A stretch of DNA of 64,000 nt from contig CAJOLA010000001.1 of the NCBI GenBank assembly GCA_905235275.1, positions 1-64,000 of the forward strand. The letters run 5' to 3'. This DNA comes from an uncultured Lachnospiraceae bacterium. Lineage in GTDB: Bacteria > Bacillota > Clostridia > Lachnospirales > Lachnospiraceae. Numbering within the stretch: position 1 is the stretch's first letter; each line of letters opens with the position of its first letter. Shown here piece by piece: positions 13,438 through 54,154 of this stretch. Made by a program: the position numbers and the translations under genes. The notes below the pieces were generated by a model. The model searched no databases. It was not told the DNA's origin and saw only the letters and a program-made list of their open reading frames with translations.

Positions 13438-14352
13438 TTATTGTCGAAGCAGCCTCAATGCACGCTTGAAATCATCAGGCAAATCGGCTTTAAATTCCAT
13501 GTACTCGCCCGTTGTCGGATGCTTAAAACCGAGCACTCCGGCATGCAGCATCTGTCCGTCGGTATTAAAGGGTGCTTTAGCATTGGTATAAATCTTATCA
13601 CCAAGGAGGGGATGCCCTATTGACTTCATATGAACCCTTATCTGGTGGGTTCTTCCCGTCTCAAGCACACATTCGATATGTGCGAAATTTCCGATATTCT
13701 CAAGGACCCTGTAATGCGTTACCGCTTCTTTCCCCTTTGGAGATATGACCATCCTCTTGCGGTCCGAATCACCCCTGGCAATTCTTTTGTTAACGGTCCC
13801 CTCTTTTTCCGTAAAAGAATTATAGCAAATCGCCTCATATCTTCTGGTCATGGTATGGGCTTCAAGCTGCTTAGCCATTGCTTCGTGAGCCTTATTATTT
13901 TTTGTGCATACTATAAGCCCCGTGGTATCGGCATCTATCCTGTGCACGATTCCCGGTCTGTCATCTCCGTTAAGATCGGAGAGCCCGTCCTTATATCTGT
14001 ACAAAAGCGCATTTACCACAGTCCCGCTGTAATGTCCCGGCGCGGGATGAACGACCATGCCTCTCGGCTTATTAATCACCAGCACGTCGTCGTCTTCATA
14101 AACGATATCAAGAGGGATGTCTTCGGGAAGTATCTCTTCACTCACCTTCTCTTCTTCGGAAATGTCGATTTTGTCGCCTTCTTTTAGTTTGGCATTACTC
14201 TTCGTTTCCGCATCGTTTAGAAGAATCTCACCCGCCTCAATCGACTTTTGAACGGATGCTCTCGATCTTCCCGTATATTCTGCAAGAAATGAATCTATTC
14301 TGTTTCCTGCATCATCTGAATTCACAATGTAAACGGTTTTATTTTGTTTCAT
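13438..14352 (-). CDS. rluD: RluA/RluD-family pseudouridine synthase
   Basis: S4 N-terminal domain; GIVHRIDADTTGLIVCTKN and ETGRTHQIRVHMKSIGHPLLGD motifs. Confidence 0.93.
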   Translation of the reverse strand: MKQNKTVYIVNSDDAGNRIDSFLAEYTGRSRASVQKSIEAGEILLNDAETKSNAKLKEGDKIDISEEEKVSEEILPEDIPLDIVYEDDDVLVINKPRGMVVHPAPGHYSGTVVNALLYRYKDGLSDLNGDDRPGIVHRIDADTTGLIVCTKNNKAHEAMAKQLEAHTMTRRYEAICYNSFTEKEGTVNKRIARGDSDRKRMVISPKGKEAVTHYRVLENIGNFAHIECVLETGRTHQIRVHMKSIGHPLLGDKIYTNAKAPFNTDGQMLHAGVLGFKHPTTGEYMEFKADLPDDFKRALRLLRQ

Positions 14353-32965: not shown

Positions 32966-34420
32966 TTAAATTTTACCATTATTATTTTCAAGCGTGTCGT
33001 TTTCGTCAATATTTTCAAAGGCGATTTTTTTACTTTTACCTATATCCTTTGAAGCCCGTTTCCAGATTATAAAATACCATATTCCGGCCAATCCCCATGT
33101 CGCGGGATAAATCGCGGCTACGGTGTAGATGCTCAGTGTCCCCGTGACGTTTAATATCACAAGTACGCCGGCTCTTATAACGGCAAAGCATATCACCGAT
33201 ACCAGCATGGCACTTTTGGTCTTCCCCAGACTTCTTGAAGCATTTGAAAAAACCTCGATAAATACATAGAAAAAATAAAACGGCGTCGTAAGCCTGGTTA
33301 TCTGTTTCCCCAGTTCCACGACCTCCTGCTGGGGCGAAAAAATAACATAGAAAATGCCGCAGAAAATAAAAAGCAACACTTCTATTACCGCCACGAAAGG
33401 CAGGGAAATCTTAAGAACCGTTTTTATGGATTCACTGATACGATCATATTTTTGAGCCCCGAGATTCTGACCCACGATGAAAAGAACCGCCTGGCCGAAT
33501 GAAATTATCGGATAATACAAAAACAATTCAATCTTATAATAATCCGTGTATGCGGCTATGGCATCGACGCCCAGTGAATTAATATTTGCCTGAACAAATA
33601 CATTGGACAGGGTAACCATCATATTCTGAATACCAACGGGAAGACCCAGTGCAAATATTGCCTGTACCATACCCCGCATGGATGCCGGAACGTCATAATC
33701 CTCCTTTTTCCAATCGGCAAGATCTCCAAGCTCGCGGTGCGTCATGTAATGCTTCTTTTTTGCATGCAGATAATACAGATATGTTGCAATTGCGGCAAAT
33801 GTCTGCGAAATAACGCTTGCCGCCGCAACACCGAGTATTCCGTCAGGCCATGTACTGATAAAGAGCCAATCCAAAAATACATTAATCGCTCCGCCTATGG
33901 TCTGGAATATCATGGGCGTACGTGAATTACCGGTTGCACGAAGCAGACCTGCCGACATATTAAAAAGTACCATGGGGATTATTCCCAGAAAATAAACACG
34001 TATATATGAGGACGCCATTTCAAGGATATCCTGAGGCGTCTGCATAAGACTGAGTACAGGTGTGGCAAGACAAAGACCGAGAACGGTAAAAATACCCCCG
34101 ACAGAGATTGATAAAATTATCACAAGCTTTCCCAGCTTGTTCTGCGATGCAAAGTCATGCGCACCGTATGCTTTGGAAAAAAGAATTCCCATCCCGACTG
34201 ACAGTCCGCCGAAAAGTCCGATTGCAAGAGTAATAAGCATCGAACTGGCCCCAATGGCAGCTGATGCTTCCTTACCAATATAATTCCCCGAAAATATCAG
34301 GTCCGCCGAGTTATACATCTGCTGAAACAGATATGCAAGCATCAGCGGAATTACAAAACGAATTATCTTTTTTGCAAACGGTCCTTCAGTAAAATCAATT
34401 GTCTTCGGTTTGTTTAGCAT
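32966..34420 (-). CDS. MATE-family efflux transporter
   Basis: FTEGPFAKKIIRFVIPLMLAYLFQQMYNSADLIFSGNYIG. Start placed at MLNKPKT; overlaps the end of the upstream ATPase gene. Confidence 0.9.
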   Translation of the reverse strand: MLNKPKTIDFTEGPFAKKIIRFVIPLMLAYLFQQMYNSADLIFSGNYIGKEASAAIGASSMLITLAIGLFGGLSVGMGILFSKAYGAHDFASQNKLGKLVIILSISVGGIFTVLGLCLATPVLSLMQTPQDILEMASSYIRVYFLGIIPMVLFNMSAGLLRATGNSRTPMIFQTIGGAINVFLDWLFISTWPDGILGVAAASVISQTFAAIATYLYYLHAKKKHYMTHRELGDLADWKKEDYDVPASMRGMVQAIFALGLPVGIQNMMVTLSNVFVQANINSLGVDAIAAYTDYYKIELFLYYPIISFGQAVLFIVGQNLGAQKYDRISESIKTVLKISLPFVAVIEVLLFIFCGIFYVIFSPQQEVVELGKQITRLTTPFYFFYVFIEVFSNASRSLGKTKSAMLVSVICFAVIRAGVLVILNVTGTLSIYTVAAIYPATWGLAGIWYFIIWKRASKDIGKSKKIAFENIDENDTLENNNGKI

Positions 34421-35168
34421 TGCCCAAAGATAAAACGGATGAAAGTAATTGTTTGGTATACCCCTCCTTAGGATTGTCAATTACACTCCGTGCTTCTCCT
34501 TCCTCAACACATTTTCCCCTCTTAAATACCATAATGCGATCGCAAAGGCTGCTTGTAAGTGCCAAATCGTGTGACACAAATATCATTGAAATTCCACGTT
34601 TCTTCAAATTATCCAAATGCTTTACTATTACTGCCTGGGCGGATACGTCAAGAGCACTGGTGGCTTCATCGCAAAGAAGTATCTCGGGGTCAACTGCCAT
34701 CGCCCTTACTATGGCCATTCTCTGACACTGACCACCGCTGATATTTCCCGCCTTCTTTTCGAGAAGACTCTCAGGCAGCCCCATATTCCCCATCAGTTCC
34801 TTTATCTTTTGCTCCTTATCACCGTCAGGCATTATGGAATATATCTCTTTAAAAACATCCTTCATTTTTAATCTCGGGTCAAAAGAACCGACAGGATCCT
34901 GAAATACCATCTGCATTTTTCTGCAAAGCTTCTGAGGCTTACTTCCCGTATACTCCTCACCTTTAAAATAAATATTCCCCGAGGTCAGCTTATCAAGGCA
35001 TGCAATATGTCTGAGGATGGTACTTTTCCCGCTACCGCTCTCTCCGACTATGCCGAGAAACTCACCTCTCTTAAGCGTCAGATTCACATCATCCAGCGCC
35101 CTTAATTCTTTTCCGTTTTTTTTGTAAATGCGTACGGCATTCTTTACTTCAAGTAAAATATCTTCCAT
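34395..35168 (-). CDS. Peptide/nickel ABC importer ATPase 2 (DppF/NikE-like), locus A
   Basis: GESGSGKSTILRHIA; ISGGQCQRMAIVRAMAV; EILLCDEATSALD. Confidence 0.92.
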   Translation of the reverse strand: MEDILLEVKNAVRIYKKNGKELRALDDVNLTLKRGEFLGIVGESGSGKSTILRHIACLDKLTSGNIYFKGEEYTGSKPQKLCRKMQMVFQDPVGSFDPRLKMKDVFKEIYSIMPDGDKEQKIKELMGNMGLPESLLEKKAGNISGGQCQRMAIVRAMAVDPEILLCDEATSALDVSAQAVIVKHLDNLKKRGISMIFVSHDLALTSSLCDRIMVFKRGKCVEEGEARSVIDNPKEGYTKQLLSSVLSLGNAKQTEDN

Positions 35169-35185
35169 AACTTTCTCACTAAATT

Positions 35186-36127
35186 TTAGAAACAGGTTGC
35201 AAAATGATTCTCACTCACCTGCTTTAATTCATAAGGATTATTCGAATATTTACAGCCGCCATCCTTTTCTACAGCGCATCTTTCCTTAAATGCACACTCA
35301 ACCATTTCGGCTCCGTTAATCGGAGGCTGCCCTTCAAGACCCTTCGGGAGTTCAAAGCTGAAATCCGGTATGGCTTTTATAAGCGCTTTTGTATAAGGAT
35401 GCGCAGGTGTGTAGAGTACTTTATCTGTAGCTCCGATTTCAACCAGATGACCCGCATACATAACTCCCACTCTGTCTGCCATCATTGCAGGTATGCCGGG
35501 ATTATGCGTCACCAAAAGAATCGTTGTATTTAATTCTTCCCTGACCTTCATAAGCTCTTCTATAGCCATCTTCTGAGTCGTAACGTCCAGTGCGCTTGTC
35601 GGCTCATCGCAAAGAAGCAACGCCGGATTCAGAATCATCGTCAATGATATTGCTATTCTTTGTATCATGCCTCCGCTCATCTCATACGGACGGCTATTCA
35701 TGATTCTCTCGGCATCGGGCAGATTCATCTTTTCAAAAATAACCCGCACCTGTTCAAAATCATATTCCATGCCGTGGCTCTCAAGCGCCTCCTTAAACTG
35801 GGCTTTAAACGTACGTAGCGGATTAAATGCTCCGCCAAGGTACTGTAAAACCATTCCTATGTCTTTCCCTGCCATTTTACGTATTTCCCGGTCGGAAAAT
35901 GACATTATGTCTTTGCCTTGGAAATATATATTCCCCTCTGTTATGACGGTTGCAAGCTCAGGTATGTTTATTATCGATTTTAAAAGAGTTGATTTCCCAC
36001 AACCGCTTTCCCCCAAAAAGCAGAGAATCTCTCCTCTTTTAACGGAAAAATTAACTCCCGAAATCATATTGTTTTTTCCGTATGAGACGCTTAAGTTTTC
36101 TATGCGAAGTATTTCATCATCTTTCAT
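35186..36127 (-). CDS. Peptide/nickel ABC importer ATPase 1 (DppD/NikD-like), locus A
   Basis: GESGCGKSTLLKSI; MSGGMIQRIAISLT; C-terminal oligo_HPY-like Cys region VECAFKERCAVEKDGGCKYS. Confidence 0.92.
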   Translation of the reverse strand: MKDDEILRIENLSVSYGKNNMISGVNFSVKRGEILCFLGESGCGKSTLLKSIINIPELATVITEGNIYFQGKDIMSFSDREIRKMAGKDIGMVLQYLGGAFNPLRTFKAQFKEALESHGMEYDFEQVRVIFEKMNLPDAERIMNSRPYEMSGGMIQRIAISLTMILNPALLLCDEPTSALDVTTQKMAIEELMKVREELNTTILLVTHNPGIPAMMADRVGVMYAGHLVEIGATDKVLYTPAHPYTKALIKAIPDFSFELPKGLEGQPPINGAEMVECAFKERCAVEKDGGCKYSNNPYELKQVSENHFATCF

Positions 36128-36971
36128 TTCGCACCTCCGTCATATCACGTACGGCATCTCCGAAAAAGTTAAAAATAAGTATCGTAATCAGCATGGCTAT
36201 GGACGGTGCAATAACGGCCCACGGAGTCAGCTGAATATAGCCTCTTGCTTCATTTATCATTGAACCCCATTCCGCCATGGGCGGCGTCACGCCAAGTCCC
36301 AGGAATGAAAGTCCGGAAATATAAATCATGGTCGTGCCAATCTGGGTGCAGGCCGTGGCAAGAAGCGGTCTGAATATGTTCGGGAATATATGTCCGAACA
36401 TAATCCTCCCGTTACTCACACCGTTTAGCTTCAGAGCCTGTATGAACGTTTCGTTTTTCATGCTGTATGTCTGACCTCTTGCGAGTCTCGCATAAAGCGT
36501 CCAACTCGTTATCCCGATGGCGATAAGAGCATTCGTAAGATTACCTCCGAGAACACCGGCAACGGCGATTGCCAGTACCATCTGAGGGAAGGCAAGCAAA
36601 GCATCGGTTATACGCATAAGTATGGCATCAACAATACCTCCGTAAAAACCGCATATCAGCCCTATTATACTTCCTCCAAAGAAAGATACCGCAACCAAAA
36701 ACAGGCTCGAGAAAATAGAGGTAAAGGCTCCTGCCAATACCCTTGAATAAACACAGCGCCCGAGACTGTCCGTACCGAAAATAAATTCGGGACCGGGACC
36801 CTGTCGCATATGCGCCGCATTCGTTGCATAAGGATCATTGGGCTCAATCAAGGGCGCAATAATGCTTATGACAAGAAGCGCTGCCGCAAGTGCCGAAAAT
36901 ATGATTAATCTTATTTTCACACTTTTATATGAAAGCTTTTTTGCTTTTGTTCTTCTTTTGAAACCTTTCAT
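36117..36971 (-). CDS. ABC importer permease (DppC/NikC-like), locus A
   Basis: DPYATN...FGTDSLGRCVYSRVLAGAFTS; EAA loop motif. Confidence 0.93.
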   Translation of the reverse strand: MKGFKRRTKAKKLSYKSVKIRLIIFSALAAALLVISIIAPLIEPNDPYATNAAHMRQGPGPEFIFGTDSLGRCVYSRVLAGAFTSIFSSLFLVAVSFFGGSIIGLICGFYGGIVDAILMRITDALLAFPQMVLAIAVAGVLGGNLTNALIAIGITSWTLYARLARGQTYSMKNETFIQALKLNGVSNGRIMFGHIFPNIFRPLLATACTQIGTTMIYISGLSFLGLGVTPPMAEWGSMINEARGYIQLTPWAVIAPSIAMLITILIFNFFGDAVRDMTEVRNER

Positions 36972-36972
36972 G

Positions 36973-37911
36973 TTACCCCTGTTTCCCGTAATCTATTCTC
37001 GGATCTATAACCCTGTACAAAATATCCGTTACAAGATTAATAAATACATATACAACTGCCATTACCAGCACGACTCCCAAAACTACCGGATAGTCTCTGG
37101 CGGTAATGGAATCCATAACCAGCTTTCCGATTCCCGGCCATCTGAAAATATTCTCTATAACGACACTTCCTCCCATAAGAGTACCTATGGAAAGTCCCGC
37201 TATAGTAATCATCGCGGGCGAGGAATTATGAAGGACATTTCCGAAAACAACCTTGTTTTCCTTTACGCCCCTCGTTCGCAGACCCGTAATATACGACTTA
37301 TCCAGCTGTTCGATGACCTCGCTTCTGAACTGCTTAATAAACCTTGCACACATCGGAATTGCCAGGGACAACGCAGGCAGTACAAGACCCTGAAAAGAAT
37401 TATCGGCAATAACCGGAAAAAGATTTTGTTTTATACATAGGAAATAAATAAGCAAGGTTGCAATTAAAAAATTAGGCAGAGCACATCCGATAAACGAAAA
37501 TATCTGCACAATCACATCCAGCACCGAATTGCGATAAACCGCCGCAAGTATTCCCAACGGCAGGGAAATCGCAAGCGCCACCGCAAGCGATGACAACGCA
37601 AGCGGCAAGGTATACGAAAGCCCCTTTCCTATCTTGCCGGCCACTGAGGTATCATCCGCGTAGGATGTCCCCAAATCGCCCTTACATACACCTCCGAGCC
37701 ACGAAAAATAGCGGACCGCAAAGGGTTCGTTCAAACCCATCTTTTCACGTTCCGCCTCCAATGTCTCAGCATTAATCGGTTCGCCCCTCAGTGTCAGCTT
37801 CCTTTCGGCAGGATCACCGGGAGCTATGTACATAAGGGCAAATGTCATAATACTTACGGCAAAAAGAACAAATATAAGTTGTAAAAGTCTTTTTCCAATG
37901 AATTTGCCCAT
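36973..37911 (-). CDS. ABC importer permease (DppB/NikB-like), locus A
   Basis: GKFIGKRLLQLIFVLFAVSIMTFALMYIAPGDPA; VENIFRWPGIGKLVMDSITARDYPVV. Confidence 0.94.
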   Translation of the reverse strand: MGKFIGKRLLQLIFVLFAVSIMTFALMYIAPGDPAERKLTLRGEPINAETLEAEREKMGLNEPFAVRYFSWLGGVCKGDLGTSYADDTSVAGKIGKGLSYTLPLALSSLAVALAISLPLGILAAVYRNSVLDVIVQIFSFIGCALPNFLIATLLIYFLCIKQNLFPVIADNSFQGLVLPALSLAIPMCARFIKQFRSEVIEQLDKSYITGLRTRGVKENKVVFGNVLHNSSPAMITIAGLSIGTLMGGSVVIENIFRWPGIGKLVMDSITARDYPVVLGVVLVMAVVYVFINLVTDILYRVIDPRIDYGKQG

Positions 37912-37946: not shown

Positions 37947-39506
37947 TTAAAATGATGTTGTTGCGTCAATTCCGTAGAAATCAAACGGAACCTCTGCGCC
38001 AATACCCTTAATTCCCGGTTTACTTACTGTAGTCTTATTAAACAGACCCACATATCCGAAATAGTCATCATCGATTGCAATCTGAATAATCTTATTTGCA
38101 AGGTCTGCTCTCTTATCGGCATCCGTCTCAGTCTTCAACTGATCAATATACTTCTGGCATTCCTCATTCTTGAATCCGCCGGCATTATAGTATGCACCGT
38201 CAGCAAGCGTATTGTTGATGAAGTAATACGGATCTCCGTACTTATCGGTAATCATGCAGTAAAGAGCGATATCATAATCACCTGTCGTAATATATGTTTC
38301 GGTATCTTCTTCTGCTTTAAGTGTTGTATTAATACCGATAGCCTTTAACTGCTCCTGCATAAGAGTTGCAATCTTATCAAGCTCTCTTGCTTCATAATAC
38401 TTAACGGTAAGATTAATCTCTTTTCCGTCTTTCTCATAGTAGCCTTTATCGTTAAGCTTGTATCCGTCCTCTTCGATGAGCTTCTTAGCAGTCTCGGTAT
38501 CCACCAGCTTTGCGGGATTTGCAACTTTTCCGTATGCGGCAGATTCAGGGAAAGGACCGTCGGTAGCTGAAGTTGTTCCTTTAAGATATTCGGCAATCTT
38601 CTCCTTATCAACTGTTGAGTTGATGGCTTTTCTTACCTTTGCACTAACGTTATTCTCATTCAGAATGTAGAACTGACATCTCTCACCCGGGATTGACGTC
38701 AGGGTGTAACGGGAAGGATCCTGAGAGTAGATTGCAATGGCATCAGCACTTACGCTGTTATACCAGTCAATCTCTCCGTTTTGCATAGCCATAAGCTTTG
38801 AACTGTCATCCATCATATAGTAGAAATATGCACTGTCAAGATTAACGTCTCCATCCCAGTACTTCTCATTCTTCTTAACCGATACGTCTCCGCCCGGAAC
38901 AAATTTATCAATTACAAAAGGACCCGTGCAAATCGGCGCTTTATCAAAATCCGTTGTAGCGTCAAGATCCATAATACCAAGCTCAGGTGAAGCAAGCTCG
39001 TTCTTTAAAACAGGATAAGGTTCTTTCGTGTCAATCGTAAGGGTTGTATCATCAACTGCCTTATACTCGAAATCGGCATATACCTTAAATTTCTGGTTCT
39101 CCTTACCCGTTCTCTGGAAGTTCCTGATAACCATATCGGCCGTCAGCTTATTGCCGTTGGAAAATGCGGCCCTTTCATTGAGCTTAATTGTCCATACATT
39201 TCCTTCAGACTCTGCGGACTTAGCAAGAACCGGCTCAAGCTCTGAATCTTCATTAACCTTAAACATACATTCAGACATACCTTCAATAAGTGTATACCAA
39301 CCGTTGTTATCCTTATGTACATCAAGACTTTCATACGCAAATGAAACGGCAGCCTTCATATCCTTCTTTGAGGAATCCGATGTCGCAGCCGTTGTATCTC
39401 CGCCTGCCGTTGTGGGCTCACCTCCGCCACCGGAACAAGCCGCAAGGCTCATTGCTGACATAGCTGCTACGGCAGAAAAAATAATTCCTTTCGACAACTT
39501 CTTCAT
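37947..39506 (-). CDS. Extracellular solute-binding protein family 5 (NikA/DppA-like) lipoprotein, locus A
   Basis: Lipobox SLAACSGGGG; family-5 features W.IKLNERAAFSNGNKLTADMVIRNFQR. Confidence 0.92.
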   Translation of the reverse strand: MKKLSKGIIFSAVAAMSAMSLAACSGGGGEPTTAGGDTTAATSDSSKKDMKAAVSFAYESLDVHKDNNGWYTLIEGMSECMFKVNEDSELEPVLAKSAESEGNVWTIKLNERAAFSNGNKLTADMVIRNFQRTGKENQKFKVYADFEYKAVDDTTLTIDTKEPYPVLKNELASPELGIMDLDATTDFDKAPICTGPFVIDKFVPGGDVSVKKNEKYWDGDVNLDSAYFYYMMDDSSKLMAMQNGEIDWYNSVSADAIAIYSQDPSRYTLTSIPGERCQFYILNENNVSAKVRKAINSTVDKEKIAEYLKGTTSATDGPFPESAAYGKVANPAKLVDTETAKKLIEEDGYKLNDKGYYEKDGKEINLTVKYYEARELDKIATLMQEQLKAIGINTTLKAEEDTETYITTGDYDIALYCMITDKYGDPYYFINNTLADGAYYNAGGFKNEECQKYIDQLKTETDADKRADLANKIIQIAIDDDYFGYVGLFNKTTVSKPGIKGIGAEVPFDFYGIDATTSF

Positions 39507-39968: not shown

Positions 39969-40721
39969 TTAATGATCATGTCCTTCATGCTCCTTAACTC
40001 TGAAGCAATGTGTGGCCGTATAATGAATCTTGTCATAATCATCGGAATCTCCGTCAAGCACGTATCTTGCAAGGATTACATATACTCCCGGCTCCTCCGG
40101 TGTAATCTTTAAAATACCGTCTGCTCCCGTGGAAAGCTTTGTCTCTTTTTTGTCGGAATCCCCTTTGTATATAAGAGTAATGTCATCACACGCCTGAGGC
40201 TTGCCATCCGTCTTTAATACGAATGTAAGCTCATGACCGACTACAAATTCGGGATTTACAGGCAGTAAGCTTGTAAGAAGCGGTGCATCAAAAACATCGG
40301 TATTATGGCTGTGACCGACAACTATGCAGCCTGTTGCAGACTGAACGTATCTGTCTACGCTTATTGCATCGGGATTATCCTTCTTGGTACCTTTCTTCCA
40401 TTTGTCATTCGGATACTCGGCATAGCAGTTATCATACTGTGTGGAGAATATATATATACCTTCCTGATCCGTCTCTGCCGTAAGATCAAGATATTCTTTA
40501 CCGGTATCCTTTATCTCGACTTCACCGGCCGTACCGTCGGGAGCAAATGCCTTAAAGGTAAGCTCTTCCGTTCTCGGAAGACCGTCACACTCCATATTAT
40601 GACCCCATTTAAGCATTGTCATGATTGAGTCGCCTGCATGATAATGAAAAATATAATCCTCAAGCCATCCCTCATGACCGTAAACAAGTTTATCCGTGGT
40701 ATCTTTAATATTATTGTTCAT
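39969..40721 (-). CDS. DUF4198-like (NikK-type, nickel-associated) protein, His-containing
   Basis: 250 aa; IFHYHAGD, VVGHSHNTD, GHELTFVLKTDGKP...GDSDKKETKLSTGADGILKITPEEPGVYVILARY, terminal EHEGHDH. No obvious signal peptide. Confidence 0.6.
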   Translation of the reverse strand: MNNNIKDTTDKLVYGHEGWLEDYIFHYHAGDSIMTMLKWGHNMECDGLPRTEELTFKAFAPDGTAGEVEIKDTGKEYLDLTAETDQEGIYIFSTQYDNCYAEYPNDKWKKGTKKDNPDAISVDRYVQSATGCIVVGHSHNTDVFDAPLLTSLLPVNPEFVVGHELTFVLKTDGKPQACDDITLIYKGDSDKKETKLSTGADGILKITPEEPGVYVILARYVLDGDSDDYDKIHYTATHCFRVKEHEGHDH

Positions 40722-40820: not shown

Positions 40821-41585
40821 TTACTTTTTGGCTTCTATCATAAACAGCGGCGTGGTTGAGTAGTTCATCTTATCAACCTTATCCCACACGATATCGGTTA
40901 CATCCGGATTAATGCTTATCTCATCAAATCCAAGCTGGCAAAGTACCTCAAAATCCCAGTCAGGTCTGTCCAGATGAGAACACGGCACACGCATTGCGAT
41001 GCTTTCCATCCATTCCGAGTTAACACCCTTTTGCTTTTCCTTATCGGTAATATTAAGCTCTTTAACCCTCTGCCTTTCGGCATCATGAGCCTTTTTCATG
41101 TCATTATTACAGAGATACCTGTACCAGTTGGCATCAAAATTAAGCATCTTACCGCCCTTTTTAAGAACTCTCTGCCATTCCCTGTAAGCAATTCCCGGAT
41201 ATTCAAGATTCCATGTAAGATTCCTTGATACAATAAGATCAAAGGTATTATCCTCGAATTGAAGCTTCTTGGCATCCATCCTCTCGAAGGTAATGTTACC
41301 CAAAAGATCTCCGGCATTCTTTTTGGCTTTTTCAAGCATCTCCTGCGTATAATCAACGGCATTCACATGATATCCTGCCTCCGCAAGAATAATCGGGAAA
41401 AATCCCGGCCCCGTACCTATATCAAGAATCCTGATATCCTTTTTCTCCTTTTCGGGCATATGCGAGCACATCAAATCCCGCCACATGCCCTTTTTCATGC
41501 TTGCAAGCTCTTCTTTGTTTAAGTCCGAATATCCTTCGGCCCTGTTCGTCCAATAATCCTGAATTTCTCCCAACAATTGACTCAT
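40821..41585 (-). CDS. Class I SAM-dependent methyltransferase (MT1)
   Basis: ILDIGTGPGFFPIILAEAGYHVNAVDYTQEML; RNLTWNLEYPGIAYREWQRVLKKGGKMLNFDANWY. Confidence 0.93.
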   Translation of the reverse strand: MSQLLGEIQDYWTNRAEGYSDLNKEELASMKKGMWRDLMCSHMPEKEKKDIRILDIGTGPGFFPIILAEAGYHVNAVDYTQEMLEKAKKNAGDLLGNITFERMDAKKLQFEDNTFDLIVSRNLTWNLEYPGIAYREWQRVLKKGGKMLNFDANWYRYLCNNDMKKAHDAERQRVKELNITDKEKQKGVNSEWMESIAMRVPCSHLDRPDWDFEVLCQLGFDEISINPDVTDIVWDKVDKMNYSTTPLFMIEAKK

Positions 41586-41699: not shown

Positions 41700-43400
41700 T
41701 TAAGGGATATTTTCAAAAAATTCTTCAGTTTCTCTTTCTCTGATTCCATCCTTTGTCATCTCGATGATTTTGCCGGCATTTCTAACCGTTGTAAGTCTGT
41801 GCGCAATAACAAAGGTTGTCCTGTTTTTAGCCAATCTGTCCATGGATTCCTGGACTATTCTTTCACTGTCATTATCCAGTGCGCTTGTCGCCTCATCAAA
41901 TATCAGAATGGGAGGATTCTTAAGGAATACCCTGGCTATTGAGAGTCTTTGCTTCTGACCTCCGGAAAGCTTTACGCCTCTTTGTCCGATGTCCGTGTCA
42001 TATCCGTCCGGAAGCGCCATTATGAAGTCATGCGCATTCGCATTTTTGGCGGCTTCTATAACCTCTTCTCTCGTTGCGTCGGGGCGTCCGTAGAGGATAT
42101 TTTCATAAACTGTTCCTATGAACAGATACACATCCTGCTGCACAACACCGATATTATCCCTCAGACTTTTTTGCGTAACGTCCCGAATGTCCTGCCCGTC
42201 AATCCGGATACTGCCGTCGCTTATGTCATAAAATCTCGGTATAAGACTTACCAGCGTGGTTTTTCCTATTCCGGACGGACCCACAATCGCATAGTATGCC
42301 CCGGCCGGCACCTCAAGGTTTACGTTTTCAAAAACCGTCTCTTTGTTCTCGCCGTATTGGAACTCAACATTTTCAAAAGACACGTTCCCCTTTACGTCCT
42401 TTAACTCAACCGCACCCGGCTTATCCTGAATATCGGGAAAGATATCGAGAATCTCGATAAATCTCTCAAATCCCGAATAACCGTTTTGGAACATCTCCGT
42501 AAAATCTATCATGGTCTTAATCGGTTCGGTAAGCACATTTATATAAAGCAGAAATGCCATCATATCGGCAACGTCCAGACTGCCGTGGCTTATCATTATT
42601 CCTCCGACCACCAAAACGAGAACCGTCATCATTGCCGTTATTGCTTTAAGACCGGCATTATATCCTCCCATATATCTGTATGAATCACGCTTTGCCTTCA
42701 GGAACTCTTTGTTCCCCTTTCCGAATTTATTATTTTCGATATCTTCATTTGCAAAGGATTTCACCACCCGGATACCGGAAAGCGAATCTTCCACCTGGGC
42801 ATTAACATCTCCTATGGTCTCACGATTCCTTTTAAAGGCCGCTTTCATTCTTTTGTTATAAAAGTAAGCAAATATAAGCATAACGGGAAGCAGGATAAAT
42901 GCGGCAAGCGTAAGCGGCGGACTTATGATAATCATAATTATAAATGCACCGACAATTCTGATAAATGAAATGACGATATTCTCCGGACCGTGGTGAAGAA
43001 GCTCCGTTATATCAAAAAGGTCCGCCGTAATCCTGGAAAGAAGTCCGCCCGTATTCTGGTTATCATAGAAGGAAAATGAGAGCTTCTGATAATGCTCGAA
43101 TATCTCACTTCGCATGTTATATTCTATCTTCGCTCCCATAACATGTCCCACATATGCTATGTAGTAATTACAAAAATACTGCACCACGATAAGACCGGTA
43201 AGAATAGCTCCTGCAATGCTTACACTGACAACCGCCTCCTGAACCGGACGCTCGGCAATTACATTAACCACATATCTGACCGCAAAAGGAATAACAAGAG
43301 CGATTAATGCGGATATAATGGCACACACCATATCCGTATAGAATTCTTTTTTGTATGGCTTATAGTATGACCCGAGCCTTTTTAAATTCTTCCAAAACAT
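41700..43400 (-). CDS. ABC exporter, fused permease-ATPase (MsbA/LmrA-type)
   Basis: Type-1 exporter TM domain; GPSGIGKTTLVSLIPRFYD; KLSGGQKQRLSIARVFLKNPPILIFDEATSALD. Confidence 0.95.
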   Translation of the reverse strand: MFWKNLKRLGSYYKPYKKEFYTDMVCAIISALIALVIPFAVRYVVNVIAERPVQEAVVSVSIAGAILTGLIVVQYFCNYYIAYVGHVMGAKIEYNMRSEIFEHYQKLSFSFYDNQNTGGLLSRITADLFDITELLHHGPENIVISFIRIVGAFIIMIIISPPLTLAAFILLPVMLIFAYFYNKRMKAAFKRNRETIGDVNAQVEDSLSGIRVVKSFANEDIENNKFGKGNKEFLKAKRDSYRYMGGYNAGLKAITAMMTVLVLVVGGIMISHGSLDVADMMAFLLYINVLTEPIKTMIDFTEMFQNGYSGFERFIEILDIFPDIQDKPGAVELKDVKGNVSFENVEFQYGENKETVFENVNLEVPAGAYYAIVGPSGIGKTTLVSLIPRFYDISDGSIRIDGQDIRDVTQKSLRDNIGVVQQDVYLFIGTVYENILYGRPDATREEVIEAAKNANAHDFIMALPDGYDTDIGQRGVKLSGGQKQRLSIARVFLKNPPILIFDEATSALDNDSERIVQESMDRLAKNRTTFVIAHRLTTVRNAGKIIEMTKDGIRERETEEFFENIP

Positions 43401-43514: not shown

Positions 43515-44339
43515 TTATTTCCTGGTTAAAATGTAAGCAAACCTTTTATGCTCTCCGGATGAGAGCCATTCGTCATCCGCAAACAGCTTGCGTTCTATAT
43601 CTTCGACATTAGTGAGTCGGATTATCTGCGCATCGACTCCCTCCCTCTGAATATAGTCTGCAACTTCCTTTTTGCCGGATCTTGACGGAAGATTATCATT
43701 CATTTCCTTGGTATATACACGGCCTCCATGCCCTTTATGTCCATGACCGTGATGACCGTGTCCGTGTTCGTGAGAATGTTCACACCCTTCCTCATGAGAA
43801 TGCCCGTGCTCATGCTCACCCTCATGGCAATGCTCTGCATTATCGCGCTCTTTTGATTTGTTCGCATATGCTTTCCAGTCGCCGTCAATAATGATGACTT
43901 TTCCGCCGGGTTTAACAACCTTAATCCAGCTGTCAATCGCTTCACCCGGATGAGGCAGTGTCCACAGGAGATGTCTGTTAATAACAACATCATATTCATT
44001 CTCCGGCTCGTCCAATTTCTCGGCATCACCTATCGTAAATGAAACCCTCTCTTCCAGTCCCTGCTCTTTTACTTTTCTTTTGGCATCCGCCTGCATACCT
44101 TCGGATATGTCAAGGCCTTTGACCGTGTGCCCCATCTCCGCCAAAAGCAACGTCAGAAAGCCGGTACCGCATCCGACATCAAGTACCTTCGCCCCTTCGG
44201 GAACAATCTCTCTTAATGCCTTTATCCATTCCTGCTTTTCTTCCTCTTCGAACAGACCGTGTCCGGGAGCCGTATCATAATCAACACTTCCGGCATCCCA
44301 ATATTTAACAACCTCTTCCTTAAACTTTTTATCTTCCAT
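43515..44339 (-). CDS. Class I SAM-dependent methyltransferase with His-rich insert (MT2)
   Basis: VLDVGCGTGFLTLLLAEMGHTVKGLDISEGM; RHLLWTLPHPGEAIDSWIKVVKPGGKVIIIDGDW. RBS GGAG upstream of the internal ATG at 44339. Confidence 0.93.
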   Translation of the reverse strand: MEDKKFKEEVVKYWDAGSVDYDTAPGHGLFEEEEKQEWIKALREIVPEGAKVLDVGCGTGFLTLLLAEMGHTVKGLDISEGMQADAKRKVKEQGLEERVSFTIGDAEKLDEPENEYDVVINRHLLWTLPHPGEAIDSWIKVVKPGGKVIIIDGDWKAYANKSKERDNAEHCHEGEHEHGHSHEEGCEHSHEHGHGHHGHGHKGHGGRVYTKEMNDNLPSRSGKKEVADYIQREGVDAQIIRLTNVEDIERKLFADDEWLSSGEHKRFAYILTRK

Positions 44340-44358: not shown

Positions 44359-45237
44359 TTATACTTCTTCCAGGACAAAATGTCCCGGAGTTACTTCAAT
44401 CATTTTTTCTCCCAACTGCCTGTCAGTATCATATTCCAAAAAGGTTTTGTTTCTTTCATATTCCGGATCGGGTATATGAATGGCAGAAAGCAGTGACTTC
44501 GTATAAGGATGAACCGGATTATTAAACAACTCCTCCGTCTCACCCAGCTCCACCAGCCTGCCTCTTAGCATAACCCCCACCCTGTCGCTTATAAATCTTA
44601 CAACCGACAGATCATGGGCTATGAACAAAAACGTAAAATTATTTTCTTTTTGTAAATGTTTAAAAAGATTTATAATCTGCGCCTGTATTGATATATCAAG
44701 AGATGCAACAGGCTCATCCGCCACGACAAGTTTGGGTTCCATCATCAGACTTCTTGCTATGGCAACTCTCTGACGTTGGCCGCCGGATAATTCCTGCGGA
44801 TATTTTGACAGATAACTTGCATCCAGTCCTGATTTTGAAAGTATAAAATCAAGTCTTTCTTTTGTTTTCGCGCTGTTTACGGGTATATGGTTAATCTCCA
44901 ACGGCTCCAATATTATCTTTTGAACCGTCAACTTGGGATTAAGGGCCGCACCGGAATCCTGGAAAATCATCTGCACTTCTTTATGCATTCTGTTGATGGT
45001 GGCTTTCTCCTGTACTGACTCTCCCCTGTACAGGACATCTCCTCCCGTCGGTCTGTACATACCGCAAATAGCCCTTGCAGTCGTCGACTTACCGCATCCT
45101 GTCTCCCCCACGAGACCGAACACTTCACCGTCCTTAATGTCAAGCGATATACCGTCTACGGCTTTAACCGTATAATCCTCGTCTATCTTAAAGTGCAGTT
45201 GCAGATCCTTAACATCTACTATTGTATCTGCTGCCAT
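44359..45237 (-). CDS. Peptide/nickel ABC importer ATPase 2, locus C
   Basis: GETGCGKSTTARAICGMYRPTGG; LSGGQRQRVAIARSLMMEPKLVVADEPVASLD. Confidence 0.94.
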   Translation of the reverse strand: MAADTIVDVKDLQLHFKIDEDYTVKAVDGISLDIKDGEVFGLVGETGCGKSTTARAICGMYRPTGGDVLYRGESVQEKATINRMHKEVQMIFQDSGAALNPKLTVQKIILEPLEINHIPVNSAKTKERLDFILSKSGLDASYLSKYPQELSGGQRQRVAIARSLMMEPKLVVADEPVASLDISIQAQIINLFKHLQKENNFTFLFIAHDLSVVRFISDRVGVMLRGRLVELGETEELFNNPVHPYTKSLLSAIHIPDPEYERNKTFLEYDTDRQLGEKMIEVTPGHFVLEEV

Positions 45238-46268
45238 AATGCGCTCCTTTTCCTGAGATTAACAGGCGATACCACCCTTGGCGCCCTTTCATCAAGGAGC
45301 CACGTGGCCGCACTGTGTGTTTCCGAAACAGGAAACATCGGCGGTTCTTTTTCATAATCTATTGCCATTGCATATTTGTTGCGTACGGCAAATGCATCGC
45401 CCGGAGGCGGATCTATGAGAATCGGTGGCATGCCCTGTATGAAATTCAACTCACCGTCCTTTTTGGCAAGCGCGGGAAGTGATGATAACAATCCCCACGT
45501 ATACGGATGCCTCGGGTCGTAATAAATATCCTCGGCAGTACCAATCTCAACAATCTTTCCGGCATACATAACCGCAACCCTGTCGGCAACCTTTGCAACG
45601 GCACCGAGATCATGAGATATGAATATCATTCCTAAGTTTAATTTAGTACGGATATCCAGCAAAAGATTAAGTATCTTTTCCTCCACCGTCACATCAAGCG
45701 CGGTCGTTGCTTCATCCGCAAAAAGTATCTTTGGCTCTGAGGCAAGCGCCACCGCAATGACGCATCTTTGTCTCATACCTCCCGAAAAGAAATGCGGCTG
45801 CAGTTTGAATCGCTCATTGGCATCTCTTATACCGACAAGATCAAGCAGTTCGATTGCCCGCGCTTTTGCCTCTTCATTACTTACCTTTTTATGCTTTTGA
45901 ATGGCTTCGGTTATCTGCTTACCGATCGGTATCGTCGGATTCAAGGTAGTCATGGGATCCTGAAATACCATGGAAAGCTTTCCGCCCCTGAGCTGCCTCA
46001 TCTTTTTCTCGTTGTAGTCCGTAATATCTTCACCGTCAACAATAATGCTACCGCTTTTGATATGTGCATTCTTTGGCAACAGCTTCATTACGGATTTACA
46101 CATTACGGTTTTGCCGCAGCCCGATTCGCCGACTACGCCAAGTATTTCCCCGGGCTTTAGCTGCAGGCTTACATTTCTTACCGCCTGCACTTCCCCTTTC
46201 GGCGTGTCAAAGGATATCGACAAATTATTCAGTTCTAAAAGGTTTCCACTCATCTGCTGATAGTCCAC
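45219..46268 (-). CDS. Peptide/nickel ABC importer ATPase 1, locus C
   Basis: GESGCGKTVMCKSVMKLLP; FSGGMRQRCVIAVALASEPKILFADEATTALDVTV. Confidence 0.94.
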   Translation of the reverse strand: MDYQQMSGNLLELNNLSISFDTPKGEVQAVRNVSLQLKPGEILGVVGESGCGKTVMCKSVMKLLPKNAHIKSGSIIVDGEDITDYNEKKMRQLRGGKLSMVFQDPMTTLNPTIPIGKQITEAIQKHKKVSNEEAKARAIELLDLVGIRDANERFKLQPHFFSGGMRQRCVIAVALASEPKILFADEATTALDVTVEEKILNLLLDIRTKLNLGMIFISHDLGAVAKVADRVAVMYAGKIVEIGTAEDIYYDPRHPYTWGLLSSLPALAKKDGELNFIQGMPPILIDPPPGDAFAVRNKYAMAIDYEKEPPMFPVSETHSAATWLLDERAPRVVSPVNLRKRSALWQQIQ

Positions 46269-47857
46269 TCTTCAATATTCCACATAACACCGACTGCGTG
46301 ATGTCCCAATGTTCTTGTTGTATCAGGTCCCGTAAGTCCCTTTACTCCGACATAGTTACCCTGGAGATAAACTAAGAGGAGTACACCGGGTTTTTGTGCA
46401 TAAGTCTTTTCAAAGTTAGAATACGCCGTTTTTCTTTCAGCTTCAGTCTTAGCGTAACGTCCTTCTTCAAGAATCTTATCAACGTCCGGATTTGAGTAAT
46501 GCATGTTGTTACTGCTTCCGGTTGTTGTGTACTGTCTGTAAATCATATCCGGGTCAAACTCGGTAGCATATCCTGCGAGGAATCCGTTATAACCCTTCTT
46601 CCAATCAAATTTTTGAACGAATACGATTTCCATCTCTACGCCGACCTGCTTAAGCATATTGGATACAACGTTTGCGATATCCACACGCTCCTCTTCCCAC
46701 TCTCTTGTCTGAATGGTGAAGTGGAATTTCTGACCGTTTCTTTCATAGATACCGTCTGAGCCCTTCTTCCATCCGAGTTTTTCCATCTCAGATGCGAACT
46801 TATCTTTGTCATATGAATAGATGTCGGCAGCCTTATCCGTTCCCAAAGGATTTCTCTGAATCGGTGAATAAGCAGTCTCACCCTGACCTACAAGAACGCT
46901 GTCTACGATTGCCTTTTTATCAACCGCATAGTTAAGAACACCGATTGAGTCTGCGTTATCCTTCCAGAAATCAGAGCTCATATCCATTGATGCAGCACGG
47001 TAATCGGCTGTCGTAAATACCCACTGCTTAAAGTTATCATTGCCGTTAAAAGTAGCGGCATATTTTGAATTAAGCCATGCAAGATCGGCTTCGCCCGCCT
47101 GTATCATGGTAGCTTTGGTTGTCTCATCACCTACTGTTTTGTAAACAAGTGTCTCAATGTTTGGAACCTTGTCATAATAGTCTGAATTAGCAGTGAAGGT
47201 AATCATTCCACCGTCGGTATCCCATGATTTAAGCTTATATTTACCGGTACCTACAGGCTTATGGTTATATTCGGTAGTTTCAAGATCCTGTCCCTCGAAG
47301 AGATGCTCCGGAATAATTCCGATTGTAAAATATGTCTCTATGGGAAGCATGAGTTTGCTCAACTTAATCTCAACGGTATAATCATCCTTCTTATTAACCG
47401 AAGAAATGTCTTCATAATCAGTTCTTATTCCATCTGCAAGTGCTTCATCTTCCAGAATTCTCTTATATGTATAAACCACATCATCCGCATTAAAAGGTTC
47501 ACCGTCGTGCCACTTTACGCCCTGACGAAGTTTAAATGTATAAGTAAGCGCTCCTTCATCAAAGCTGTAGCTTTCAGCAAGATCTTCCGTAGGCTTTCCG
47601 TTTGCATCAAGCTTTAAAAGACCTGAGTAAACGATTCTTGTCAGCTCTCCGTGTGTATCAAGGAGCGGATTAATGCTGTCAACCTCTTCGCCTGCATATA
47701 CAAGCGTATTGTCAAGATTTGAGGAAGGCGCCGCCGTTGAAGCGGATTCACCTGATGAAGCCGCGGGGCTTTCGGGTGTTCCTGAAGAACATGCAGCCAT
47801 TGAAGCAGCCATAACACCAACTAATGCAAGTGATGCAAATTTCATTGTTTTTTTCAT
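46250..47857 (-). CDS. Extracellular solute-binding protein family 5, locus C
   Basis: Lipobox SMAACSSG; FKLRQGVKWHDGEPFNADDVVYTYKRI; C-terminus LGHHAVGVMWNIEEW. Confidence 0.94.
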   Translation of the reverse strand: MKKTMKFASLALVGVMAASMAACSSGTPESPAASSGESASTAAPSSNLDNTLVYAGEEVDSINPLLDTHGELTRIVYSGLLKLDANGKPTEDLAESYSFDEGALTYTFKLRQGVKWHDGEPFNADDVVYTYKRILEDEALADGIRTDYEDISSVNKKDDYTVEIKLSKLMLPIETYFTIGIIPEHLFEGQDLETTEYNHKPVGTGKYKLKSWDTDGGMITFTANSDYYDKVPNIETLVYKTVGDETTKATMIQAGEADLAWLNSKYAATFNGNDNFKQWVFTTADYRAASMDMSSDFWKDNADSIGVLNYAVDKKAIVDSVLVGQGETAYSPIQRNPLGTDKAADIYSYDKDKFASEMEKLGWKKGSDGIYERNGQKFHFTIQTREWEEERVDIANVVSNMLKQVGVEMEIVFVQKFDWKKGYNGFLAGYATEFDPDMIYRQYTTTGSSNNMHYSNPDVDKILEEGRYAKTEAERKTAYSNFEKTYAQKPGVLLLVYLQGNYVGVKGLTGPDTTRTLGHHAVGVMWNIEEWTISR

Positions 47858-47876: not shown

Positions 47877-48848
47877 TTATAAATTACTTGGGGTTTTGGT
47901 AGTTTCTTTTCTGTAGAAGTTTGCCATATTGGTTATGCATACAAGAGTTGTTATAACAAAAATACCCGGTACGATAATTACCCACCATGTATTCAAAACC
48001 AAAGCTTTATTGGCCAGGGATAACATGCTACCCCAAGAGATAACATCTACGGGCAATCCAAGGCCAAGGAAACTGAGTGTCGATTCCGTAGTTATCGCCG
48101 TGCCCACTGACGAAACTGCCGCAAACATAATGGCAGCTACAAAATTCGGTATCAGGTGCGTTTTAAATATGTAGAAGAATCTGCCTCCGGCACTCCTTGC
48201 ATATATAACGTAATCGCTGTTCCTGATCTGGCGCACCTCGCTTCGCACGATACGTGCCAGTCCGAACCACGCCGTTATACCTATCACGACCGACAGCGTC
48301 ACAACGTTATTGGAACTAAATACCGCCGTAACAACGAGAATGATAAGTATGGACGGAATACTTCCGCTCATCTCCGTTATTCTCATGAGTATGGAATCAA
48401 CACGCGCCGATGCCGTTCCGCTCAGACTTCCGTAAACGGTACCGATAATCGTCGTAATGGCGGCCCCCAGAAGACCGACTATGATTGACGTTCGACCGCC
48501 GTACCAGATCATGGAATATATGTCTCTTCCAAGCGAATCCGTTCCGAATAAGAATTCGGAATTGGGTGCCTGATTGATATGGTCAAGATAGAACCCGTTG
48601 GGATCGTGATTTGCAAGAATCGGCGCTATTATGCAACCGAATGCTATTGCGCAAAATACGATAAGAGAGGCAATGGGCTTGCCCTTCATCTTCTCTCTGA
48701 ATGTCTGCTTCTTAAACTGCGGAGTGTGGATTTTGTATTCGGGCCCAACAATCCGAAACATGTCTTTATCATTTTCGATCTGTATATCGACGTTCGGTTC
48801 TTCCGCAGACACGGCTTTATTCTTTTCGAAAACTGCGTTTTTCACCAT
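47877..48848 (-). CDS. ABC importer permease (DppC/NikC-like), locus C
   Basis: FLFGTDSLGRDIYSMIWYGGRTS; STLSFLGLGLPVDVISWGSML. Confidence 0.94.
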   Translation of the reverse strand: MVKNAVFEKNKAVSAEEPNVDIQIENDKDMFRIVGPEYKIHTPQFKKQTFREKMKGKPIASLIVFCAIAFGCIIAPILANHDPNGFYLDHINQAPNSEFLFGTDSLGRDIYSMIWYGGRTSIIVGLLGAAITTIIGTVYGSLSGTASARVDSILMRITEMSGSIPSILIILVVTAVFSSNNVVTLSVVIGITAWFGLARIVRSEVRQIRNSDYVIYARSAGGRFFYIFKTHLIPNFVAAIMFAAVSSVGTAITTESTLSFLGLGLPVDVISWGSMLSLANKALVLNTWWVIIVPGIFVITTLVCITNMANFYRKETTKTPSNL

Positions 48849-49840
48849 CTTATCTCCTTAGTTACTTTCATTCTCGGATCAATCTGTTCGTTGATTGCCT
48901 GAGCCACAAAGCTTGCGAAAAATACAAACGCCCCGGTAAGCAATACGGTTGTCATGAGCATGTTATAGTCGTGTAATTTCGCGCTCTCAACCGCCAGGTT
49001 ACCTATGCCCGGATATCCGAACACGGCTTCCACCACGACCGTTCCCGATATAACGTGCGGTATCGCTATCGCCATAATACTTACTATGGTAGGACCGACA
49101 TTTCTCAGACAATGCTTCCAAACTATCTGTCTTCTCGTAAGACCTTTAGATTTTGCAAGAAGCACATAATCCTTTCGGAATTCGTCCAGGAGCTTGTTTC
49201 TTATCATGTATGCGTAGTACCAGAAATGACTCGCAATCATTACAATCAGAGGCAGAATCATATGCCATATTCTGTTCCCCAGGTCGTTTTGCTTTCCGAC
49301 GTCGTAAGCGCCGCTGCTCGGAAACCATCCGAGGTTAACGCTAAATATCAATACCAGTACAACACCCAGCCAAAACGGAGGAATGTAATAGGTTGCCGTT
49401 CCGACCTTACAGATAATCTTGTCAAGCAAATCGTCTTCATGAAGTGCGGCAACCGTCGCCAAAACTATCGCAAGAACAAATACGACAATATATGCCGTTA
49501 TACCAAGCGCTAACGTATTACCAATCAGAGGACCCATGACATCCTGAACCTTCATCTTATATTTCAGGGATAATCCGAAGTCACCGTGAAGAGCTCCTCC
49601 AAGCCATTTGAAGTATTGAACGAAAAGATTATCATCTAGACCGAGTCTCGCTCTGGCAGCCGCAATCTGCTCATCATTCATGCTGTCCAATGCTTCCCCG
49701 TAAAATGCCTGCAGCGGATCTCCCGGCGCAAGCCTTGCAAGAATGAACACAACTACGGACAGTATGAACATCGCAATTACGAATAAAATTACATACTTAA
49801 TTGTTTTTTTAATTATTTTATTTCTTTTTTTGCTTTTCAT
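48842..49840 (-). CDS. ABC importer permease (DppB/NikB-like), locus C
   Basis: VVFILARLAPGDPLQAFYGEA; VEAVFGYPGIGNLAVESAKLHDYNMLM. Confidence 0.94.
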   Translation of the reverse strand: MKSKKRNKIIKKTIKYVILFVIAMFILSVVVFILARLAPGDPLQAFYGEALDSMNDEQIAAARARLGLDDNLFVQYFKWLGGALHGDFGLSLKYKMKVQDVMGPLIGNTLALGITAYIVVFVLAIVLATVAALHEDDLLDKIICKVGTATYYIPPFWLGVVLVLIFSVNLGWFPSSGAYDVGKQNDLGNRIWHMILPLIVMIASHFWYYAYMIRNKLLDEFRKDYVLLAKSKGLTRRQIVWKHCLRNVGPTIVSIMAIAIPHVISGTVVVEAVFGYPGIGNLAVESAKLHDYNMLMTTVLLTGAFVFFASFVAQAINEQIDPRMKVTKEIRW

Positions 49841-50044: not shown

Positions 50045-50782
50045 TCATCTGTATTGTGGTTTTCTGATTACATATGCTTCTCTTTTGTAATTATCATTGG
50101 AAAGCCAATCATTATCGACATACTTTTTTCTTTCAAGATTGTCGATATCTTTAAGACTTACTATGGTTATTTCATAACCGTCTCTGTCTATGTAATCAAA
50201 AGGCTTACCTTCACCTCTGTGCAACGGAAGGTTTTGTATGAGCTCTTCAGAGTATGAATTATCATCATTTTTGTCTTTATGATCTTCTGCCTTTACTTCT
50301 CTGCTTATACTGTTCCAATCTCCGTCAATAATGATCACACACCCTCCCGGTTTCGTTACACGGATCCATTCATCAACAGCTTCCCTCGGATGAGGCAGCG
50401 TCCATAAAAGATGCCTGTTAATAACGACATCAAATTTGTCATCCTCTTCGCCGGTGTTTTCCGCGTCCGCAATGTCAAAAGTAACGCGGCTCACAAGTCC
50501 TGCTTCGCTTACCTTTCTTTTTGCATCACTTTGCATGCCTTCGGATAAATCTATACCTTTTACGTTATATCCAAGCTCTGCAAGAAGCAGTGTCAAAAAT
50601 CCGGTACCGCATCCGACATCAAGAATGTCCTTTGTATCAACCGGTACAATGTTTTGTAAGAATTTTAACCATGCCTGTTTTTCATCATCACCTTTTAATC
50701 CGTGGCCGTCCTGGGCATCATAATCCTTACATCCGATATCCCAGTATCTTGCCACCTGCTCTTTTATTTCTTTGTCTTCCAA
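50045..50782 (-). CDS. Class I SAM-dependent methyltransferase (MT3)
   Basis: ILDVGCGTGFLTLLLAELGYNVKGIDLSEGM; RHLLWTLPHPREAVDEWIRVTKPGGCVIIIDGDW; close paralogue of MT2 without the His insert. Confidence 0.94.
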   Translation of the reverse strand: MEDKEIKEQVARYWDIGCKDYDAQDGHGLKGDDEKQAWLKFLQNIVPVDTKDILDVGCGTGFLTLLLAELGYNVKGIDLSEGMQSDAKRKVSEAGLVSRVTFDIADAENTGEEDDKFDVVINRHLLWTLPHPREAVDEWIRVTKPGGCVIIIDGDWNSISREVKAEDHKDKNDDNSYSEELIQNLPLHRGEGKPFDYIDRDGYEITIVSLKDIDNLERKKYVDNDWLSNDNYKREAYVIRKPQYR

Positions 50783-53178: not shown

Positions 53179-54154
53179 TCGCCTTACCCTCCCTTAATCT
53201 CGGATCAAATACTCCGTAGAGGATATCGGCTATCAGATTTCCGGCAAAAACAAATAACGCCGAAATAAGTGATATTCCCAATAGAAGCGGTACGTCTGCA
53301 CTTAGAGCTGCCGCCGTCGTTGCAGTTCCTATTCCCGGATATGAGAATACATTTTCCGCAAGCGCCATTCCTCCGAAAAGCTCACTGAAGGATGCAAACT
53401 GCAACGTGATTGCAGGCAATGCTATATTCCTTAAAATATGACGTCTTGTTATCTGCCTGTCTGTCTCTCCTCTCGTTTTTGCGTATAAAACGTAATCACT
53501 TCTGTTAATCTCGACATATTTTTGCCTGGTATATAGTATTACATCTCCCATGCTTACTATCGTTAAGGTAAAAGCCGGAAGTACCATATGATACAGTCTG
53601 TCCGCGAAAGTTACGTCGGACGATACTTTACCCATCGGCGTCGCCATACCTATCGGGAACCACCCCAGCAGCACACCGAACACTGTCAGGATTATCAGTC
53701 CCAGCCAAAAGGTCGGCGCTGATTTTAATCCCAAAAAAATCGTTTTGATAATGCGGTCAAAAACACTGTTCTCATGCTTTCCGCATGCCATGCCCAGGAA
53801 AAATCCGATAATTCCCGAAAGCGCCCATGAAACCATCATTAACACAAATGACATGGAAAATCTTTCAAAAATAACATCGGCAACCGGTCTTTTATACGTT
53901 ATGGACGTTCCCATATCGCCCTGAAACAAATGCCCCAGCCATGTAAAAAATCTCTGAGGAAGCGGATCGTTGAGCCCCCAATACTGCGCTATCTCCTGCC
54001 TTGCCTCAGGCGAAAGAGTCGACTCCGTTCCGACATAAGTCGTCAGAGGATCTATCGGTGCACTTGTTATGAGAATAAAAGCAAGAAGACTTACGGAAAA
54101 TAACAGAATTACCAGTCTGATTATTTCACTCACAAGGCTTTTCGTCTTGAACAT
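53171..54154 (-). CDS. ABC importer permease (NikB-like), locus D
   Basis: FILITSAPIDPLTTYVGTESTLSPEARQEIAQYWGLNDP; AENVFSYPGIGTATTAAAL. ATG overlaps the SBP stop codon (TAATG). Confidence 0.94.
   Translation of the reverse strand: MFKTKSLVSEIIRLVILLFSVSLLAFILITSAPIDPLTTYVGTESTLSPEARQEIAQYWGLNDPLPQRFFTWLGHLFQGDMGTSITYKRPVADVIFERFSMSFVLMMVSWALSGIIGFFLGMACGKHENSVFDRIIKTIFLGLKSAPTFWLGLIILTVFGVLLGWFPIGMATPMGKVSSDVTFADRLYHMVLPAFTLTIVSMGDVILYTRQKYVEINRSDYVLYAKTRGETDRQITRRHILRNIALPAITLQFASFSELFGGMALAENVFSYPGIGTATTAAALSADVPLLLGISLISALFVFAGNLIADILYGVFDPRLREGKANA

Follow-up and report, generated by a model that had tools for sequence, protein, structure and literature searches.

A histidine-rich, putatively metal-binding loop inside a class I methyltransferase of a Lachnospiraceae metal-import locus

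In this work, we describe a class I SAM-dependent methyltransferase, MT2, which carries a dense His tract as an internal loop and is encoded within a metal-import locus of an uncultured Lachnospiraceae bacterium. The loop is probably a built-in putative metal store. Our preferred explanation, to which we assign a probability of roughly 60%, is that it serves as a cytosolic buffer or delivery loop for a metal, most likely nickel, whose binding to the loop we infer.

According to this explanation, MT2 would be an ordinary small-molecule class I methyltransferase belonging to the metal-import locus. In one branch of the genus, it would have gained a disordered loop rich in His, Glu and Gly, placed after the post-beta5 helix and ahead of the C-terminal part of the domain. 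This loop would loosely bind several transition-metal ions, probably Ni(II), entering through the adjacent NikZ-like ABC importer, and would either buffer them in the cytosol or deliver them to nickel-using proteins, for example urease. It may do the job of a separate small His-rich protein that is found beside the methyltransferases of sister species. The substrate of MT2 itself would be a ligand or a product from the same pathway.

The window, that is, the whole stretch of 64,000 nucleotides that was analysed (contig CAJOLA010000001.1 of GCA_905235275.1), belongs to an assembly of 1.26 Mb that is 86.5% complete (G000). Its features and those of related loci in other genomes are listed in table 1.

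Table 1. Features of the MT2 locus and of related loci; positions are those of the window unless a stretch (L) of another locus is named.
Feature	Positions	Strand	Basis or remark
Importer 2 genes	34395-37911		
SBPb, NikA-like solute-binding protein of importer 2	37947..39506	minus	PDB matches, NF045468 Opp5A_nikA
DUF4198 protein, C-terminus with His (EHEGHDH)	39969..40721	minus	PF10670 7.9e-22
MT1, more distant methyltransferase adjoining the NikA-like importer	40821..41585	minus	tree
ABC exporter-type permease/ATPase, downstream of MT2	41700..43400	minus	ABC_membrane/ABC_tran
MT2, class I SAM-dependent methyltransferase, 274 aa	43515..44339	minus	Methyltransf_11 1.2e-22, AlphaFold, Foldseek
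His-rich insert, MT2 residues 168-206	43722..43838	minus	predicted disordered
ATPase F of importer 1, Opp/Nik-type	44359..45237	minus	82-84% in the two orthologous loci
ATPase D of importer 1, Opp/Nik-type	45219..46268	minus	
SBPa, NikZ-like solute-binding lipoprotein of importer 1	46250..47857	minus	SBP_bac_5, PDB matches
Permease C of importer 1	47877..48848	minus	
Permease B of importer 1	48842..49840	minus	
MT3, MT2 paralogue without His insert	50045..50782	minus	alignment, tree
G001 His-rich ORF	L011 2386-2628		99 bp from methyltransferase gene
G001 His-rich ORF	L049 5111-5593		242 bp from methyltransferase gene
G002 His-rich ORF	L052 5974-6216		173 bp from methyltransferase gene
G003 His-rich ORF	L064 7525-7725		62 bp from methyltransferase gene
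G003 His-rich ORF	L132 9818-10456		not adjoining methyltransferase gene
CobW-type GTPases	L118/L127 (G000:C24, ~12150-13560); L102 (G005); L131 8728-10044 (G008)		

A His-Rich Loop on an Ordinary Methyltransferase Fold

Translation of the reverse complement of positions 43722-43838 gives AEHCHEGEHEHGHSHEEGCEHSHEHGHGHHGHGHKGHGG, 39 residues that include 15 His and 2 Cys, and so reproduces the tract described in an earlier note on this DNA. Under an assumed background His frequency of 2%, the probability of at least 15 His in 39 residues is P = 5e-16. The 274-residue reading of MT2 was preferred because both orthologues found in related genomes start with MEDK; a longer start, from TTG at 44378, was rejected, as both begin at this methionine.

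MT2 has the signatures of a class I SAM-dependent methyltransferase (PF08241, 1.2e-22; PF13649, 4.9e-22), including an intact motif I (DVGCGTGF). None of the NCBIfam curated cut-offs was reached, the best model being CpaM (82 bits vs a cut-off of 180), and the nearest PDB sequence was a phosphomethylethanolamine methyltransferase (2.3e-16). The AlphaFold model, built with nine sequences in the alignment, has a mean pLDDT of 81.9 and a pTM of 0.80, with pLDDT below 50 at residues 172-204; Foldseek matched it to ordinary small-molecule methyltransferases, among them RebM and AtmM. Judging from this model, the insert would be a disordered loop on a methyltransferase fold that is normal in other respects. 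The same model places a predicted helix (residues 155-172) between the IIIDGDW strand and the insert. The earlier placement of the insert after that strand is to be refined in one detail, since 12 residues separate the two and the insert lies at the end of the helix. The corresponding segment of MT3 is short and nearly His-free, as had also been noted, and it is variable in MT3 homologues.

Conservation and Distribution of the Insert

Insert-bearing MT2 orthologues were found in two more assemblies of the same genus, both from uncultured Lachnospiraceae MAGs of the RUG series, which we take to stand for rumen genomes. The orthologue of RUG12106 (G008, L037) is 83% identical to MT2 and that of RUG10926 (G005, L038) 67-76% identical, depending on the method. 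Over the aligned insert they have 16 and 15 His, respectively, with tract lengths equal to within a residue or two. All three species share the same operon slot, with permeases B and C, SBPa, two ATPases and MT2; the exporter follows MT2 in the window and in G008, but not in G005. In the tree, the three insert-bearing proteins form one clade (support 99/98) among relatives without the tract.

Pairwise comparisons among the three species revealed that 14/17, 13/17 and 13/18 His columns of the insert are kept, while 8/14, 5/13 and 5/13 of the retained His codons switched their third position between CAT and CAC. About 3, 6 and 7 His would be kept under neutral expectation (P = 2e-8, 0.0014 and 0.0033), defined as first and second positions changing as freely as the third, in a crude test whose three pairs are non-independent and in which alignment of a repetitive tract somewhat inflates His retention. 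The non-His positions of the insert diverge among the orthologues. On the level of sequence, His retention despite codon switching argues against free drift.

Among 397 sampled genomes of the family, a DNA pattern combining the methyltransferase strand with alternating His matched only the genome of the window itself. A protein search with MT2 at E 1e-30 reached only three other genera, at 34-37% identity, in open frames of about 255 residues, where the insert would not fit. The pattern search and these short frames indicate that most importer-adjacent relatives lack the insert. Of two objections that the earlier note had raised against its own reading, the one that MT2 homologues beside importers generally lack the insert therefore holds in half, most relatives being without it; the other, strain-specific low-complexity drift, is contradicted by the occurrence of the tract in three species, in the same operon and with its His codons retained.

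Importers and Methyltransferases around MT2

The binding protein of the importer adjacent to MT2, SBPa, matched PDB entries 8efz (5.2e-103) and 4oet (2.5e-68), the latter named by its depositors as a putative peptide-binding protein and taken by us to be Campylobacter NikZ (CjNikZ). In the 4oet alignment, the C-terminal TRTLGHHAVGVMWNIEEW of SBPa aligns with TRTLGHHGVGFTWNVYEW, with LGHH identical, and the His of the SBPa motif DTHGEL aligns with a His of NikZ; both aligned His positions are presumably Ni ligands in NikZ. By similarity and by the two His motifs of CjNikZ, SBPa is thus of the NikZ type. Both motifs are kept in G008, G005 and G001, in the last over two overlapping pieces. The closest PDB matches of SBPb are also nickel-binding proteins, namely 3t66 (6.6e-52) and SaNikA, 4ofj (1.7e-39). 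The NikA equivalog cut-offs were missed by both proteins (SBPb, 302 bits vs 600 for NF045468; SBPa, 134 vs 393 for TIGR02294). NikZYXWV was reported as a nickel ABC transporter in Campylobacter jejuni, its NikZ component reportedly binding nickel-histidine complexes (PMC5140060).

Some 30 kb of the window (34395-63998) encode, on one strand, four Opp/Nik-type importer clusters, three methyltransferases and one exporter; in some sister genomes, matches to related methyltransferases number more than a dozen. The DUF4198 protein sits between the SBPa and SBPb importers. The third importer is duplicated, and its binding proteins (54154-55809 and 62625-63998) end in HPHGHGGP and HPHGHGAP, a possible metal-binding motif. 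A predicted 5'-nucleotidase/metallophosphoesterase with a SpaA-like domain match (56839-59166) lies between importer clusters.

A natural locus without MT2 exists in G001 (contig C22, L047 2535-5165), where the ATPase stops about 30 bp from the exporter start. MT2 is therefore not essential to the importer, since G001 has importer and exporter without MT2 between them.

Stand-Alone His-Rich Proteins in Sister Species

In G001, G002 and G003, whose genomes are without the MT2 insert, we found at least five small His-rich proteins of 66-212 residues, among the matches listed in a genome-wide survey of His-rich protein patterns, which gives lower bounds for G000, G001, G002 and part of G003, and in stretches read around methyltransferase genes. 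Their N-termini are alike (MGTTDE... or MGGANDE...), and they have H.H.[DE]G..H.H repeats in common. Of the five in table 1, four adjoin a methyltransferase gene of this family on the same strand, at 62-242 bp, a proportion biased upward by the choice of stretches L011 and L064 for holding methyltransferases. In G002, an orthologue of the exporter (76% to that of the window) is followed by the stand-alone His-rich ORF and then by the methyltransferase. No Pfam or NCBIfam match was obtained for the members of this family tested (MGTTDE... H.H.ADGT.H.H). The pattern H.H.[DE]G..H.H is common to the small proteins, the MT2 loop, a CsoR-type repressor and CobW-type GTPases, while its reversed form had one occurrence.

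Where a module stands alone in some species but forms part of a larger protein in others, this is a classic sign of a functional link, of the kind used in fusion-type evidence. The proposal of the earlier note, that the tract is a metal store or delivery arm tied to the neighboring importer, is thus supported in part and circumstantially, by the NikZ-like and NikA-like binding proteins, the selection on His and the stand-alone His-rich proteins.

Nickel or Another Metal

Of the 11 genomes compared, G000, G005, G008, G002 and G007 gave a match to the urease alpha subunit, and the remaining six gave none. All three insert-bearing genomes have it, an association that reaches only P = 0.06 (n = 11 genomes). 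Against the link to nickel, no urease was detected in G001 and G003, which have the stand-alone His-rich proteins and whose assemblies are both incomplete. Searches of the three insert-bearing genomes for other nickel sinks, namely [NiFe]-hydrogenase, lactate racemase (Lar_N) and above-cut-off CO dehydrogenase, found none. The urease loci of G000 and G008 comprise ureABC, a UreE-like protein, a UreG that has a single His, and other accessory ORFs. Their UreE-like protein (110 bits, below cut-off) ends in ...SVNSHTH, with no His tail; Klebsiella UreE has a His-rich tail and that of H. pylori is without one (PMC7055735). G002 has two different ureases (L095 5408-7876 and L096 5618-11042); for one of them, nothing beyond ureABC was seen on the contig.

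It counts against our preferred explanation that all three insert-bearing genomes already encode another very His-rich protein, a CobW/COG0523-type GTPase with long His/Asp/Glu repeats and 63-90 His; that of G000 is apparently frameshifted just past the repeat, possibly by an assembly error. In G014, from another genus of the same family, a CsoR/RcnR-type repressor (PF02583; L086 7421-7771) has a His-rich N-terminus, and its gene is divergent from the adjoining methyltransferase/NikA-like importer cluster. B12-binding proteins are present in 11/11 genomes.

Alternative Explanations

The same storage could serve Zn, Co or Cu, tied to the CobW-type GTPases or CsoR-type repressors and not to nickel and urease. 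We regard this as possible but doubtful; it overlaps with our preferred explanation, which as such is metal-independent. The long His tracts of the GTPases in the genus, those of the CsoR-type repressors and the ubiquity of B12-binding proteins in the genomes compared would fit it, and the CobW-type GTPases of the genus, together with its CDF/FecB-type genes, would agree just as well with Zn, Co or Fe. Nevertheless, the two binding proteins nearest to MT2 are closest to nickel-binding proteins, and each insert-bearing genome has a urease, which speaks for nickel. A metal-sensing switch seems rather unlikely to us. In this case, metal would order the loop near the substrate cap and tune methylation, and a metal-binding small molecule would then be made or modified according to the supply of metal. 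The stand-alone His-rich counterparts carry no enzyme to switch, and disordered His tracts are more often stores than switches, although the loop falls, in the AlphaFold model, past the post-beta5 helix and before the C-terminal part of the domain, where many small-molecule class I methyltransferases have their substrate cap, and the clustering of importers, exporter and methyltransferases resembles a logic of make, export and import.

Unlikely as well would be a dual-function unloading, by which MT2 methylates the ligand of an incoming metal complex while its own His loop captures the freed ion, a task for which the sister species would use two proteins. Neutral low-complexity drift, in which a tolerant surface loop gained a functionless His/Gly/Glu repeat, is in our view quite improbable. 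Disorder of the segment, its variability in MT3 homologues, the confinement of the insert to one small clade and the divergence at its non-His positions would fit such drift, but it would not account for His kept well above neutral expectation while third positions switch, for the insert in three species or for the metal-handling surroundings.

Relation to Known Systems

His-rich nickel proteins of other bacteria were reported to store or buffer nickel (PMC7055735, PMC4671568). Like the MT2 insert, Hpn and Hpn-2 of Helicobacter (PMC4671568) have a dense His tract and are proposed cytosolic metal stores, and their hosts have urease and nickel importers, as the insert-bearing genomes have urease and nickel-type importers. 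The insert shares with such storage proteins a His-dense tract kept by selection. Hpn and Hpn-2 are, however, stand-alone proteins, whereas the MT2 tract is an internal loop and stand-alone forms were found only in the sister species. HypB, SlyD and Klebsiella UreE (PMC7055735) resemble MT2 in bearing on a folded protein a flexible His tract that was proposed as a Ni store or buffer, but they are a GTPase, a prolyl isomerase and the UreE carrier, with terminal and not internal tracts. An internal, lineage-specific expansion similar to that of MT2 is found in a nickel-handling exporter, which is a membrane protein with a far longer loop (33-53 His). In COG0523/CobW GTPases (PMC2770081), present in the same genus, the tract is also placed within an ordinary enzyme, although these have the G3E GTPase fold and form an accepted family of putative metallochaperones.

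The importers resemble CjNikZ and SaNikA-type systems, through LGHH in the NikZ-like SBPa of importer 1 and through the NikA-like SBPb of importer 2, but no accompanying methyltransferase is described for those systems in the literature searched. Staphylopine systems (CntKLM and CntABCDF) also encode together a small-molecule enzyme, an exporter and an Opp-type metal importer; MT2 differs in matching class I methyltransferase models. An opine-metallophore reading was set aside, because MT1, MT2 and MT3 have no nicotianamine-synthase-like Pfam match; no opine dehydrogenase was recognised among those ORFs scanned within 34395-55809.

Chaperones, GTPases and exporters provide well-known examples of His-rich stores and tails (PMC7055735, PMC2770081, PMC11247825). 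A His-rich store as such is a known device, and it is the placement of such a tract inside a class I methyltransferase for which we found no report, in a search that covered few subscription journals. In many Lachnospiraceae, class I methyltransferases to which no role has been assigned are encoded beside Opp/Nik-type importers. That a His-rich module lies inside the enzyme in some species and next to it in others is direct comparative evidence for placing these methyltransferases in metal handling, and it offers a testable way towards their substrate and metal. Should that metal be nickel, the finding would bear on urease supply in rumen bacteria and hence on nitrogen use in ruminants.
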